Below the pieces are notes generated by a model that was not told the DNA's origin, made no database searches, and saw only the letters and a list, made by a program, of their open reading frames with translations. The translations under genes were made by a program, and so were the position numbers. Below, in pieces: positions 8,675 through 20,178 of a DNA stretch of 58,808 nucleotides (position 1 is its first letter; each line of letters begins with the position of its first letter). Source of the DNA: an uncultured Prevotellaceae bacterium (GTDB lineage: Bacteria; Bacteroidota; Bacteroidia; Bacteroidales; Bacteroidaceae); contig CAMVIM010000023.1 of the NCBI GenBank assembly GCA_947167515.1, positions 1-58,808 on the forward strand, read 5' to 3'.

Positions 8675-8762
8675 CCCAGCCCATAAGACCGGCTGCCTCT
8701 AATAATAAGAACCCAAATAGTGTGTGGAGAAAGTGTTTCTTCAGGTCACGAAACTTAAGGGC

Positions 8763-8827
8763 AAAAAAAATGGGATGCCGCTGCATCCCGAACCTTTGTT
8801 AACCTTAAATCTAATACTATGAAAAAC
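8763..8827 (-). ncRNA. Candidate small RNA, about 65 nt
   Basis: A minus-strand transcript is bounded by a good promoter (8834-8864) and an intrinsic terminator. The terminator is GGGATGC-AGCG-GCATCCC followed by A and eight T residues in transcript sense (8789 to 8763). The body is AT-rich and contains AAGGTTAACAAAGG. No convincing protein is encoded in sense; the opposite strand has only a 7-codon frame. The rest of the 350-bp gap before recJ shows nothing else. The promoter-to-terminator layout recalls the Bacteroidales-1 RNA, but I cannot confirm membership and no L20 gene is near. Confidence 0.6.
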
Positions 8828-8833
8828 ACGATA

Positions 8834-15968: not shown

Positions 15969-16742
15969 TCACTTGATGTTCTTCCGTATCTTCGTTAAGT
16001 ACTGCTGCATGTGCTCCTCGTCGCGGGTGTCGATGATTTCGATAATCTCTTTCATCTCCTTGCGAATCTGCTCCACCTGTCCTTTGGTGTAAGGGTTGAA
16101 GAGGATTTCTCGCAGGAGGGTGTCATCCTCAGAAAGAACGCCCTTGGCAATCTTCATGTGACGCTTGAAGGTGGTGCCTGGTGCATCCTGATGCTTCATC
16201 ACGGCTGCAAAGGCAAACGTGGAGATGAAGGGGATGGAGAGGGAGTAAGCCACCGTCTGGTCGTGCTCCTCGAAGGTGTATTCAAAGATGTTGAGGCCAA
16301 GACGCGAGTAGAGGTCTTTGAAGAAGCAACGCCCCATGTAGTCGCCTTCGTTGATGATGATGGCGTTCTCGTCGTTCAGTTTGCCCAAGTTGGCAAAAGT
16401 AGGGCCAAACATCGGGTGGGTGCTCACATAGTGGAAGCCGCTCTTCTCGTAGTACTCCTTAAAGCCAGTCTTCACCGACGAGATGTCGCTGAGGATGCAA
16501 GACTTGGGCAGATGCGGAATCACCTCGTCAAATACCTTGAGCGTGTATTTGAGGCTCACGGCGTTGATGAGCAGTTCTGGCTCAAAAGCGTCAATCTCAT
16601 CCAGCGACGTGAACCGCTGGGTGTTGTACATGAATCTCAGTCGCTTGGGGTCAATGTCATAGACCGCCACTTCGTGGTCGAACGAGAGCAGGTCAGTAAA
16701 GAACGACCCCATCTTTCCTGCTCCTAATATCAGTATTTTCAT
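15969..16742 (-). CDS. tyrA: Prephenate dehydrogenase
   Basis: Oxidatively decarboxylates prephenate to 4-hydroxyphenylpyruvate, the committed step to tyrosine. 257 residues. The Rossmann motif GAGKMGSFF is at residues 7-15 and an acidic residue ends the second strand (YDIDP), favouring NAD. The family core STHPMFGPTFANL (~125-137) supplies the substrate-binding His. No C-terminal ACT domain is present, so feedback control is probably not on this enzyme. Last gene of the pheA-aminotransferase-DAHPS/CM-tyrA operon, 15 bp after the preceding gene. Confidence 0.93.
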   Translation of the reverse strand: MKILILGAGKMGSFFTDLLSFDHEVAVYDIDPKRLRFMYNTQRFTSLDEIDAFEPELLINAVSLKYTLKVFDEVIPHLPKSCILSDISSVKTGFKEYYEKSGFHYVSTHPMFGPTFANLGKLNDENAIIINEGDYMGRCFFKDLYSRLGLNIFEYTFEEHDQTVAYSLSIPFISTFAFAAVMKHQDAPGTTFKRHMKIAKGVLSEDDTLLREILFNPYTKGQVEQIRKEMKEIIEIIDTRDEEHMQQYLTKIRKNIK

Positions 16743-16757
16743 AATTTCATGTACAAT

Positions 16758-17822
16758 TTACTTGTTGATGATTTCTATCTGCTGATGTACACTTTCCTCA
16801 TGAATGCTCTCGAACACTTTGGCGACGAAGTCGGGGCTCATGCCGCAGAGCGAGCCTTGCACACCGCGCTTTGACAGAATCTCGTTGTAGCGAGTGGCCT
16901 GCAACACCGTCATGTTGTGTTCTTTTTTGTAGTGACCGATTTCGCGGCATACACGCATACGCTTGGCGAGGATGTCCATGAGCTGGTTGTCCAGCTCGTC
17001 AATCTGCTTACGCATGCTGGTCAAGCCCTCGGTGGTGGTGTGCTCGTCACGGATGACAAGCAGGGAGAGAATGTAGTCAAGCACTTCGGGAGTCACCTGC
17101 TGCTTGGCATCGCTCCATGCTTTGTCGGGGTCACAGTGAGCCTCCACAATCAGACCATCGAAACCAAGGTCCATTGCCTGCTGACAGAGTGGAGCAATCA
17201 GCTCGCGACGGCCGCCGATGTGCGAGGGGTCGCAGATGATGGGCAGGTTGGGTATGCGGCGATGCAGCTCAATGGGAATCTGCCACATCGGTGCATTGCG
17301 GTAAATCTTCTGCTCGTAGCTGGAGAAGCCGCGATGGATGGCTCCCATGCGCTTCACACCAGCTTGGTTGATGCGTTCAAGTGCACCAATCCACAGCTCG
17401 ATGTCTGGGTTGACAGGGTTCTTCACAAACACAGGCACATCCACGCCTTTCAGCGCATCGGCCAGTGCCTGCACGGCAAAGGGATTGGCTGTGGTGCGGG
17501 CTCCTATCCAGAGGATGTCTATGTCGTACTTCAGCGCCAGTTCCACATGCTCGGGTGTAGCCACCTCTGTGGATATGAGCATGTGGGTCTCTTCCTTCAC
17601 TTGTTTCATCCAGGGGAGTGCCTTCTCGCCGTTGCCTTCGAAGCCTCCGGGTTTGGTGCGTGGCTTCCAAACGCCGGCACGGAAGTTGTGACAGCCCTTC
17701 ATGGCCAGTTCACGTGCAGTTTGCATCACTTGCTCCTCAGTCTCGGCGGAGCATGGGCCAGCAATCACGAATGGGCGTTCGTTGTCGCTTGGCAAACCTA
17801 ATTTTTCTAAATCTAATTCCAT
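16758..17822 (-). CDS. Bifunctional DAHP synthase / chorismate mutase (type II)
   Basis: Fusion of the first shikimate-pathway enzyme with chorismate mutase. Residues ~1-255 are a type I-beta-like DAHP synthase (IAGPCSAETEEQ, FRAGVWKPRTKPGGFEG, CDPSHIGGRRE, EAHCDPDKAWSDAKQQ). Residues ~265-354 are an AroQ helical chorismate mutase (LTSMRKQIDELDNQLMDILAKRM, REIGHYKKEHNM). The fusion is typical of Bacteroidales and channels chorismate to prephenate for the flanking pheA and tyrA products. It sits in the middle of the operon. A palindromic repeat element fills the 124-bp gap to the upstream aminotransferase. Confidence 0.94.
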   Translation of the reverse strand: MELDLEKLGLPSDNERPFVIAGPCSAETEEQVMQTARELAMKGCHNFRAGVWKPRTKPGGFEGNGEKALPWMKQVKEETHMLISTEVATPEHVELALKYDIDILWIGARTTANPFAVQALADALKGVDVPVFVKNPVNPDIELWIGALERINQAGVKRMGAIHRGFSSYEQKIYRNAPMWQIPIELHRRIPNLPIICDPSHIGGRRELIAPLCQQAMDLGFDGLIVEAHCDPDKAWSDAKQQVTPEVLDYILSLLVIRDEHTTTEGLTSMRKQIDELDNQLMDILAKRMRVCREIGHYKKEHNMTVLQATRYNEILSKRGVQGSLCGMSPDFVAKVFESIHEESVHQQIEIINK

Positions 17823-17866: not shown

Positions 17867-17948
17867 AATTCGTGGTTAATTCGTGATAATTCGTGTTTTT
17901 ACTTTTAACATGAATTTCCATGAATTGTTCATGAATTATTCATCAATT
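17867..17948. repeat. Palindromic element with 10-11-bp repeats
   Basis: Three AATTCGTG copies (17867, 17878, 17888) are followed by four near-inverse copies CATGAATT/CATCAATT (17909, 17919, 17930, 17941), so the RNA could fold with G-U pairs. It lies inside the aromatic operon between two genes, and the last copy touches the aminotransferase stop. Confidence 0.7.
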
Positions 17949-19137
17949 ATTTTTTGTTGAATACCTCGTCAATTCGTTGTAATGCAATTTTCATGTTTTC
18001 ATCCTTCGCACAAAGCGAGATGCGGATGTATCGCTTGCCGTTACTTCCGAAGATGAAGCCTGGGGTGATGAAGACGCGAGCCTCGTGCAGCACTTTCTCC
18101 GTCAAGTCTTCCACATCGGCAATGCTGTCGGGGATGCGTCCCCAAAGGAACATGCCCTGCTGTTTCGGGTCAAAGGTGCAACTGAGAGTGGTCATGATGT
18201 CCTCAGCAATCTTGCGACGGGTGGCGTAGGTCTCAATGTTCGCATGAGTGTGCCATGCTTCCGAGTTCTCGTAGGCTTGTGCAGCAGCCAGCTGCAGTGG
18301 ACGGAAAGTGCCAGAGTCGATGTTGCTTTTGATTTTTAGAATCCACTGCACGAAAGTGCTGTTCGTGGCCAGCATGCCCACACGCCAACCTGGCATGTTG
18401 TGGCTCTTCGACATTGAGTTGAACTCGATGCAGCACTCTTTCGCTCCTGGAACTTGCAGAATGCTCAGGTGTTCATCGCGATTCAGGATGAAAGAGTAGG
18501 GGTTGTCATTCACCACTACGATGTTGTGCTTCTGTGCAAACGCTACAATCTTTTCATACAGTTCGCGGGTGGCACGTCCGCCTGTCGGCATGTTGGGGTA
18601 GTTCGTCCACATGAGTTTCACACCCGTCAAGTCCATTGCCTCCAACTGCTCGAAGTCTGGCTGCCAGCCATTGCTCTCCAGAAGATCGTAGTTCACAATC
18701 TGCTGACCCAGAATCTTGCTCAACGAAGTATAGGTGGGGTAGCCAGGATTGGGCACCAGCACCTTATCACCAGGGTTGCAGAGTGCCAAAGTCACGTGCA
18801 GGATGCCCTCCTTACTTCCGATGAGTGGCTGGATTTCTGTGTCAGGATCAAGCGTCACACCGTACCAACGCTGATAGAAGTTGGCCATTGCCTTACGCAG
18901 TTCAGGGATACCGACTGTAGGCTGATAGCCGTGGGCATCAGGGCGATGGGCATGCTCACAGAGCACGTCAATGGTTTCTGCACTGGGTGGCATGTCGGGC
19001 GATCCGATGGCAAGCGAGATGATGTCTTTGCCCTCGGCATTCAATTTCGCCACTTCCTTGAGTTTTCTTGAAAAGTAGTACTCGCTGACGAGCGACAGAC
19101 GCTCAGCGGGTTGTATCTTACATTGTTTGTCTTCCAT
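17947..19137 (-). CDS. PLP-dependent aromatic/aspartate-type aminotransferase
   Basis: 396-residue fold type I aminotransferase. The PLP lysine is within FNSMSKSHNMPGWRVG (~240-255), and the cofactor-contacting NDNPYSF motif and C-terminal RISLC arginine are present. In this operon the likely role is transamination of phenylpyruvate and 4-hydroxyphenylpyruvate to Phe and Tyr; the wider class also includes LL-diaminopimelate-like and alanine-type enzymes, so the exact substrate is inferred from context. Its start overlaps pheA by 20 bp, so translation is probably coupled. Confidence 0.85.
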   Translation of the reverse strand: MEDKQCKIQPAERLSLVSEYYFSRKLKEVAKLNAEGKDIISLAIGSPDMPPSAETIDVLCEHAHRPDAHGYQPTVGIPELRKAMANFYQRWYGVTLDPDTEIQPLIGSKEGILHVTLALCNPGDKVLVPNPGYPTYTSLSKILGQQIVNYDLLESNGWQPDFEQLEAMDLTGVKLMWTNYPNMPTGGRATRELYEKIVAFAQKHNIVVVNDNPYSFILNRDEHLSILQVPGAKECCIEFNSMSKSHNMPGWRVGMLATNSTFVQWILKIKSNIDSGTFRPLQLAAAQAYENSEAWHTHANIETYATRRKIAEDIMTTLSCTFDPKQQGMFLWGRIPDSIADVEDLTEKVLHEARVFITPGFIFGSNGKRYIRISLCAKDENMKIALQRIDEVFNKK

Positions 19138-19960
19138 CTTTATATTCTCCTAAAATTTTGAATTCTTTGGTTAGTGGGATGATGGCGTCTATTGATTGAC
19201 GATAGCGGGTTAGGTCATCGTACAGCACATCTACATAGAACAGATATTCCCATTCCTTTCCGATGATGGGCAACGACTGAATCTTCGTCAGGTTGATGTG
19301 GTAGAAAGAAAGGATGGCAAGCACGTGGCTCAGCGAACCCTCCTCATGAGGCAGCGAGAAAACGATGCTCGCCTTGTTTGCCTCCGTCAGCGGACGGAGC
19401 AGGTCTGCCTTGTTGGGGTTCGACACCACGAGGAATCTGGTGAAGTTGTGTTTGTTGTCTTCGATGTGGTCTTCCAGCACCTTCAGCCCGTACATCCGTG
19501 CAGCCTCTGCGTGGCAGATGGCTGCCCATCCACGCTTCTGCCCCTCGCCAATCATCTTCGCGCTACCAGCTGTGTCCTCAGCCTCCACGTGCTTGATGTG
19601 TGGATGCTTCTCGAGGAAGTGGCGACACTGCATCAGCGCCACAGGGTGAGAGTGAATCTCCGTGATGGTGTCCCAATCGTCCTCTGGCAGACAACAGATG
19701 CAGTGCGTGATGTGCAGTTTGTGCTCACCCACGATGGTCGTGCCCGAGTCCCTCAGCAGTTCGTAGTTGTGCAACAGCGAACCTGCAATCGTGTTCTCGA
19801 TGGCAAGCATGCCGATGGTCGTCGGGTCTTGCTTCATCGAGGCAAACACCTCCTCGAACGTCGCGCAGCATACCAGTTGCACCTGCTGACCCTCGAAGTA
19901 GAGGTGAGCGGCAATGTCGTGAAACGAGCCTGTTAAACCTTGTATCGCAATCTTTCTCAT
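19118..19960 (-). CDS. pheA: Prephenate dehydratase
   Basis: Converts prephenate to phenylpyruvate. 280 residues: catalytic periplasmic-binding-like domain (AIQGLTGSFHDIAA near the start, MLAIENTIAGSL, and the catalytic TRF motif in NFTRFLVV at ~170), followed by an ACT domain (~190-280). In the ACT domain the usual ESRP phenylalanine-binding motif reads QSLP (KIQSLPIIG), which may alter feedback sensitivity; I believe this variant is common in Bacteroidota. First structural gene of the operon, preceded by an aromatic leader peptide and hairpin. Confidence 0.93.
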   Translation of the reverse strand: MRKIAIQGLTGSFHDIAAHLYFEGQQVQLVCCATFEEVFASMKQDPTTIGMLAIENTIAGSLLHNYELLRDSGTTIVGEHKLHITHCICCLPEDDWDTITEIHSHPVALMQCRHFLEKHPHIKHVEAEDTAGSAKMIGEGQKRGWAAICHAEAARMYGLKVLEDHIEDNKHNFTRFLVVSNPNKADLLRPLTEANKASIVFSLPHEEGSLSHVLAILSFYHINLTKIQSLPIIGKEWEYLFYVDVLYDDLTRYRQSIDAIIPLTKEFKILGEYKDGRQTM

Positions 19961-19979
19961 ATATTATATAGAATGTATA

Positions 19980-20065
19980 AGCCCCACTCATCAGAGCGGG
20001 GCTATATTGTTTCTTTCCTATGTTTCAGTCACATGATTGTTAGAACACACATAACTACCCGCTCT
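19980..20065 (-). promoter_or_regulatory. Attenuator-like hairpins ahead of pheA
   Basis: In transcript sense AGCCCCGCTC (20003-19994), a TGAT loop, and GAGTGGGGCT (19989-19980) form a strong hairpin ending 19 nt before the pheA ATG. An alternative 8-bp pairing joins AGAGCGGG (20065-20058, overlapping the leader stop codon) to CCCGCTCT (20000-19993), which would break the first hairpin. The U-run after the hairpin is weak, so control may act on translation rather than termination. Confidence 0.7.
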
Positions 20066-20121
20066 TACTCCTTTGTAAAGTAAAAGTAAAAATAGTAATA
20101 TGCGTTAAACAATGACTTCAT
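20065..20121 (-). CDS. Phe/Tyr-rich leader peptide of the aromatic operon
   Basis: An 18-codon frame encodes MKSLFNAYYYFYFYFTKE: five Tyr and four Phe, nine of 18 residues, eight of them in a row at positions 8-15. It lies 27 nt below the -7 box, so it is at the very start of the transcript, and its stop codon abuts the 5' strand of the alternative hairpin. This is the classical layout of ribosome-mediated attenuation: stalling at scarce Tyr or Phe codons would release downstream expression. It would be missed by length cut-offs in gene calling. Confidence 0.8.
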   Translation of the reverse strand: MKSLFNAYYYFYFYFTKE

Positions 20122-20147
20122 TTGTCTTTTTTGCTTTAAATCGAGTG

Positions 20148-20178
20148 CAAAAGTACACACTTTCTCCGAAACTGCCAA
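20148..20178 (-). promoter_or_regulatory. Promoter of the aromatic amino acid operon
   Basis: Minus-strand TTG (20178-20176), a 20-nt spacer, then TACTTTTG (20155-20148). Start expected near 20141, just ahead of the leader peptide. Confidence 0.75.

Follow-up and report, generated by a model that had tools for sequence, protein, structure and literature searches.

The window examined here, a stretch of 58,808 nucleotides from an uncultured Prevotellaceae bacterium (contig CAMVIM010000023.1), carries a minus-strand cluster in which matches to Pfam and NCBIfam models gave the gene order pheA, aminotransferase, DAHP synthase/chorismate mutase and tyrA:

19118..19960, minus strand: pheA, prephenate dehydratase (PF00800, 4.1e-57)
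17947..19137, minus strand: class I/II aminotransferase (PF00155, 6.4e-61)
16758..17822, minus strand: bifunctional DAHP synthase / chorismate mutase (PF00793 and PF01817)
15969..16742, minus strand: tyrA, prephenate dehydrogenase (PF02153, 4.4e-10)

Given the identities of these four genes, the operon would supply both phenylalanine and tyrosine from their common pathway. Beyond a gap of 261 nt lies another gene of that strand (20728-20222), with a likeness, below the Pfam cut-off, to an ECF transporter component. Elsewhere in the window, positions 8760-8829 (minus strand) matched the FopS sRNA family (RF04319) at 75 bits, above the gathering score of 56.

The region ahead of pheA contains the following features, listed with the evidence for each:

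20148..20155, minus strand: putative -7 promoter element TACTTTTG of the TAnnTTTG type, 26 nt before the leader ATG (sequence; conservation)
20065..20121, minus strand: leader reading frame MKSLFNAYYYFYFYFTKE and stop; ATG at 20121, 18 codons, stop at 20067-20065 (sequence)
20077..20100, minus strand: putative sensing codons 8-15, Tyr-Tyr-Tyr-Phe-Tyr-Phe-Tyr-Phe (YYYFYFYF; sequence)
20077..20106, minus strand: segment 1, 5' arm of hairpin 1:2, which includes the sensing codons (fold; locus-specific pairing at 61 divergent loci)
20044..20071, minus strand: segment 2, 3' arm of hairpin 1:2 (fold)
20058..20065, minus strand: core of segment 2, AGAGCGGG, predicted antiterminator partner of segment 3, overlapping the stop (sequence; pairing comparison)
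19993..20000, minus strand: core of segment 3, CCCGCTCT (sequence; pairing comparison)
19980..20003, minus strand: hairpin 3:4, terminator-like, AGCCCCGCTCTGATGAGTGGGGCT (covariation within the genus)
19970..19979, minus strand: degenerate U-tract TATACATTCT (sequence; a U-tract is present in 231 of 252 relatives, not here)

The first-pass annotation had described an 18-codon frame with eight consecutive Tyr or Phe codons upstream of pheA and a stop-overlapping sequence complementary to the 5' arm of a hairpin just before that gene, and both descriptions proved exact. Thus, the frame lies at 20121-20065 of the minus strand, the first base of AGAGCGGG is the last base of its TAA stop, and all 8 nt of AGAGCGGG are complementary to CCCGCTCT, which falls within the 5' arm of the hairpin at 20003-19980, 19 nt from the pheA ATG (19960). 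When frames of 8-45 codons opening at the 3303 ATG, GTG and TTG starts on both strands of the window were compared, the sole frame with at least six Phe or Tyr per eight codons was the leader, with five nested starts.

Conservation of the frame was assessed at 335 pheA loci, namely that of the window's own genome, 80 loci of a genome-contig set and samples from the genus, order, phylum and family. At least 200 nt of upstream sequence was available for 331, and 325 were distinct after removal of exact duplicates. The genome-contig set is mostly Prevotella and includes three loci of the window's own type (L002-L004), through which the duplicate own-genus loci L082, L083, L087 and L092 were counted. 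The upstream sample covered 40 of 43 genus matches and, from the 101 phylum-sample genomes that had a match (own genome excluded), 68, with 22 of the 24 same-class genomes of the phylum sample used (G187 and G250 were left out). Loci were placed in genus, order or class by the kinship assignment in the search results; in line with the named relatives, we take the order and class to be Bacteroidales and Bacteroidia. A frame that opens with ATG, spans 8-45 codons and has six or more Phe or Tyr in a stretch of eight was present in 246 of the 325 distinct upstream regions; the reverse strands gave 2 in 325 and sequences shuffled by dinucleotide 2 in 975. By group, such a frame was found at 35/36 loci of the genus, 79/79 of the genome-contig set, 76/95 of the family, 41/48 of the order, 13/21 of other orders of the class (four more had five Phe or Tyr) and 2/46 of other classes of the phylum. 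Among the 79 upstream regions that failed were 19 at the family level, of which 13 belong to divergent pheA genes (36-41% identity) preceded by what appears to be coding sequence, and another three (L264, L275, L195) are loci with GTG or TTG as start codon or with their leader beyond 300 nt. The two genomes of other classes with an aromatic leader before pheA (L227/L356 and L234/L355), unlike the other 44 of 46, may owe it to either old ancestry or transfer.

The putative promoter element was identified by its agreement with TAnnTTTG, which we take to be the -7 promoter consensus. In the 110 nt that precede the leader ATG, this motif occurred at 35/35 loci of the genus, 78/79 of the genome-contig set and 75/77 of the family, and at 29/42 of the order and only 10/19 at the level of the class and beyond; reverse-strand controls gave 5, 18, 11, 5 and 2 occurrences, respectively. 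The first-pass reading of the leader as a Phe/Tyr leader-peptide attenuator with alternative hairpins is supported by this conservation, including the promoter motif at every genus locus, and the absence of frame and stems from close relatives, which had been named as the outcome that would speak against that reading, was not what the genus and genome-contig counts showed. Its restriction to Bacteroidales was too narrow, since the leader is present in that order but also at the majority of class loci from other orders noted above.

The 186-nt leader had a predicted folding energy of -53.3 kcal/mol (z -5.83), a value equalled by none of 200 shuffles. Evidence for the two competing pairings came from 61 divergent loci, 42 at the order level (nearly one per family) and 19 from the class and beyond (representing fewer families), at which each segment was paired with its own or with a foreign partner. 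For pairing 2:3, mean energies were -12.76 kcal/mol with the own and -8.32 kcal/mol with the foreign partner (permutation sd 0.30), and for pairing 1:2 they were -17.23 and -12.61 kcal/mol (permutation sd 0.40), whereas a control segment upstream of the leader displayed no locus specificity (-4.61 versus -4.73 kcal/mol). Locus-specific 2:3 pairing was also obtained with an ungapped score. Within the genus, hairpin 3:4 showed 29 two-sided changes and was 98.3% paired, a level reached by none of 500 shuffles. The core of 2:3 is nearly invariant there, with two compensatory cells (2 of 500 shuffles), and its outermost pair is unpaired at 24 of 35 loci. No covariation beyond that of shuffles was detected in the genus for hairpin 1:2 (345 of 500 as high), for which the support is between families.

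In the relatives, the second hairpin is generally followed by a U-tract. Thus, a hairpin at least as stable as -10 kcal/mol, with at least six T of eight at its end, was located between leader and pheA at 231 of 252 loci as opposed to 1 of 252 2-mer-shuffled sequences. The corresponding counts were 26/35 for the genus, 70/79 for the genome-contig set (by a second method, the first hairpin finder having misplaced many terminators there and given a U-tract at only 25/77), 75/77 for the family, 42/42 for the order and 18/19 for the class and beyond. The copy in the window differs from this pattern in that neither of two scans detected a U-tailed terminator. Its tail, GGGGCTTATAC, is common to 8 of 40 genus loci (the window and 7 of the other 39), and longer relatives have the tail GGGGCTTTTTGGTGGAGCAAACTATACATT (L102); loss of most of the U-tract through a short deletion would therefore be the simplest account of the window tail.

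In the comparison of these sequences, a conserved frame, codons that track the products of the operon, mutually exclusive pairings and the U-tailed hairpin of relatives are evident. The leader is very probably a ribosome-mediated attenuator that reads charged tRNA-Phe and tRNA-Tyr jointly and sets expression of the joint Phe/Tyr operon. From the sequence features we infer that the ribosome stalls and transcription terminates, and in which direction the switch responds, as follows. With ample Phe and Tyr, the ribosome would pass the aromatic codons, reach the stop and mask segment 2, upon which hairpin 3:4 would fold and RNA polymerase would terminate ahead of pheA. With either amino acid in short supply, the ribosome would stall on the aromatic run and cover segment 1, leaving segment 2 free to pair with segment 3; this pairing would block hairpin 3:4 and the operon would be transcribed.

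A different outcome of the same switch was proposed by the first-pass annotation, which took the weak U-run as a sign of translational rather than Rho-independent control. Hairpin 3:4 would then hide the pheA start region without terminating transcription, and stalling in the leader would open it. The weak U-run is real (GGGGCTTATACATT), and together with the 19 nt between hairpin end and pheA AUG it is what favours such a translational attenuator. As a general statement the proposal is not supported, having been drawn from the window copy, whose tract is degenerate: most relatives have the U-tailed hairpin, and within the genus the distance from hairpin to pheA AUG ranges from 9 to 188 nt, a spread unlike that of a start-site occluder. 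We regard this alternative as improbable, though as the least so of those considered here. Given the U-tailed hairpin in relatives, the family is best read as a ribosome-mediated transcription attenuator and, judged from sequence, it is filed under the intrinsic-terminator subtype, to which the window copy, its tract being degenerate, is attached only as a relative. In the window copy, termination is probably weaker, or else the nearby hairpin adds or substitutes translational control; this copy may be leaky or partly translational.

That tyrosine as well as phenylalanine is sensed was examined by comparing leader codons with operon content at 60 loci with about 5.5 kb of downstream sequence where the contig allowed, same-strand genes being counted as a proxy that does not prove a single operon. 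These loci came from order-level genomes (40 of the 51 that had a match, own genome excluded) and from 20 genomes of the phylum sample (18 of the same class and 2 of other classes). A short frame with at least six Phe, Tyr or Trp in 10 codons was found at 58 of the 60 (not at L357 and L390). Among leaders of operons in which pheA is followed by an aminotransferase, DAHP synthase or tyrA gene, 53 of 54 had at least two Tyr in the 10-codon core, the exception (L397) having one. In contrast, the core of the four leaders that precede a stand-alone pheA (L359, L363, L380, L393) contained 0, 1, 0 and 0 Tyr. Fisher's test of this difference (53/54 versus 0/4) gave p 1.2e-5, a value that flatters the comparison because the two-Tyr threshold was set post hoc and L380, L393 and L397 were picked as Phe-rich. 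The first 40 loci, which were chosen for the codon test and not by Tyr content, gave 37 of 37 operon leaders with at least two Tyr and two stand-alone leaders with 0 and 1. The pheA tree requires four changes, forced by supported branches, to account for the four stand-alone loci. In all four of these genomes, the separate tyrA region has a Tyr-containing leader of its own (3 to 6 Tyr), followed by a U-tailed hairpin:

G058, tyrA-aroF: leader MNNTFGYYAFYYYFFYNN, U-tailed hairpin follows
G133, aminotransferase-tyrA-aroF: leader MVNFEFYYGFYYYLD and, upstream of it, leader MMTTYTFSYFYYWFRTP, with U-tailed hairpins
G068, aminotransferase-aroF-tyrA: leader MIKNISVFAYFYYYFYFSKK, U-tailed hairpin follows
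G078, tyrA at contig end: leader MAPVHTYYAWSFFFFYFQNKRGHAV, U-tailed hairpin follows

The two leaders of G133 (reverse complement of L399, 20-204) thus stand in tandem, each with its own U-tailed hairpin. The Phe codons that are retained in the tyrA-region leaders are consistent with the role of DAHP synthase in the synthesis of both products.

These comparisons bear on the alternative that only Phe is sensed, the Tyr codons being a by-product of pairing or codon drift. Such a reading has in its favour that pheA is the first gene of the operon and that a single base distinguishes TAY from TTY codons. It does not accord with the drop of core Tyr to 0-1 in all four stand-alone pheA leaders or with the Tyr-containing leaders of separate tyrA regions in the same genomes, and we consider it quite unlikely. 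The divided operons provide the best evidence that the codons act as sensor and that Tyr is among the amino acids sensed, a view that is well supported by the sequence comparison. Leaders L338, L344, L346, L354 and L358 (class or order level) have one Trp codon within the aromatic run; there might perhaps be a weak Trp input at these loci, since DAHP synthase also feeds Trp.

Relative to the frame, the position of segment 2 differs between groups. It follows the stop at 34 of 35 genus loci, where 12 nt separate it from the last sensing codon, and among scored duplexes it lies inside the frame at 54/67 loci of the family, 24/34 of the order and 11/14 of the class and beyond, which points to constraint on the RNA rather than on the peptide. 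This in-frame or post-stop placement, and the variation of the peptides between groups outside the aromatic run, make it very unlikely that the leader encodes a small protein acting in trans with attenuation as a secondary role, even though a second role has been described for a leader peptide elsewhere (peTrpL of Sinorhizobium).

Aromatic runs by themselves are not rare. Seven-codon runs gave 5 matches (at 4 places) in the window's own genome compared with 14 for a backward control pattern; in five genomes, overlapping matches included, the corresponding numbers were 34 and 68. The other three places in the own genome were in long open frames (L413, L418) or a short Met-less frame (L423). Of 24 matches that were classed, 5 were pheA leaders and 19 were other runs, the latter located in short frames without Met (12), in frames of at least 70 codons (5) or in frames with Met (2; L426, L432). 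Thus, the unusual feature is a conserved run inside a short started frame at the pheA position. A functionless chance or low-complexity AT-rich leader, to which the commonness of TWY-codon runs and of the still commoner backward pattern might point, was rejected as highly implausible in view of the placement of most of the 19 other runs in Met-less or long frames and of the statistics for frame conservation (246/325 versus 2/325 and 2/975), pairing specificity and terminators (231/252).

A known sRNA or riboswitch family was rejected for the leader, since Rfam 15 gave zero matches at the window locus or at 18 related loci. Among the closest described systems is the Phe_leader of enteric bacteria (pheL-pheA), which we take to be Rfam RF01859, in which a short Phe-rich leader before pheA is followed by alternative hairpins and a U-tailed terminator. 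The leader described here shares with it the short Phe-rich frame ahead of pheA, the alternative hairpins and, in relatives rather than in the window, the U-tailed terminator; it differs in its mixed Tyr and Phe codons, in preceding an operon for both amino acids, in its occurrence in Bacteroidota and in the lack of an Rfam match. Bacteroid-trp RNA (RF01692), which from its name is presumably tied to the trp operon, was found neither at the locus nor elsewhere in the own genome; in 14 control genomes, its only match was in Bacteroides ihuae. It has been reported as a cis-regulatory RNA of Bacteroidetes (PMC2864571, Weinberg 2010). The own genome does contain trpE without this RNA. No convincing His or Trp leader was present in the stretches examined at own-genome hisG and trpE, the latter search being no test of a trp leader because another open frame ends just upstream of trpE.

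An open-access literature search, outside which most subscription papers fall, returned no paper that describes an aromatic leader in Bacteroidota. One paper, PMC4833913, cites Lopatovskaya 2010, in which attenuation was surveyed comparatively and which may list Bacteroidetes. For Flavobacterium psychrophilum, strong clues for leader peptide attenuation before amino-acid biosynthesis operons have been reported (PMC9723704), signals of the same kind for which operon and amino acid are not named in the pertinent part of that paper. For Bacteroides thetaiotaomicron, sORFs in long 5' UTRs are described, with BT_4401 as an example, in a paper whose main text is silent on pheA and phenylalanine (PMC7366714). 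Because of the scope of this literature and what Lopatovskaya 2010 may cover, we claim novelty for the dual Phe/Tyr leader only as a variant of known leader-peptide attenuation, of which there are hints in print for Flavobacterium and Bacteroides.

We know of no earlier leader-peptide attenuator that reads Tyr. On present comparisons it seems likely, with less assurance than for the leader in the window, that aromatic leaders throughout Bacteroidia form an either-or gate for Phe or Tyr shortage that is retuned by its codons with each operon split, even by tandem stacking as in G133, and that they argue for coupling of translation and transcription. An attenuator of this type requires a ribosome close behind RNA polymerase and would therefore, if the reading is true, argue for such coupling in Bacteroidia, whose ribosomes sequester the anti-Shine-Dalgarno sequence. 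Bacillus subtilis is described as uncoupled in PMC10931766. If conserved throughout a class of Bacteroidota, a leader-peptide attenuator would offer a ready assay for coupling outside E. coli-like bacteria. It would also be a testable amino-acid sensing switch, without an Rfam match, in a dominant phylum of gut and rumen, with the four separate operon splits as a natural experiment on codon-specific sensing.

The pheA gene of the window has a history of its own. In a tree with 16 of the 80 genome-contig loci chosen, from which rows that were too short were dropped (L326-L335, all ten from the genus, and 12 of the 24 selected for the family), 6 of 30 genus rows, the window's pheA included, nested in a Prevotella clade (100/100; parent 96/87), and the remaining 24 formed a genus clade (98/98). 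The window leader above this Prevotella-type gene is of the genus type, and the window aminotransferase has 90-97% identity to nine non-swapped genus members as opposed to 71-79% to seven Prevotella loci. The comparison with non-swapped genus members extends over leader, pheA and aminotransferase. A genus-type leader and a genus-type aminotransferase on either side of a Prevotella-type pheA indicate, from these sequence relationships, that pheA (19118-19960) is a xenologous replacement, exchanged between resident neighbours.
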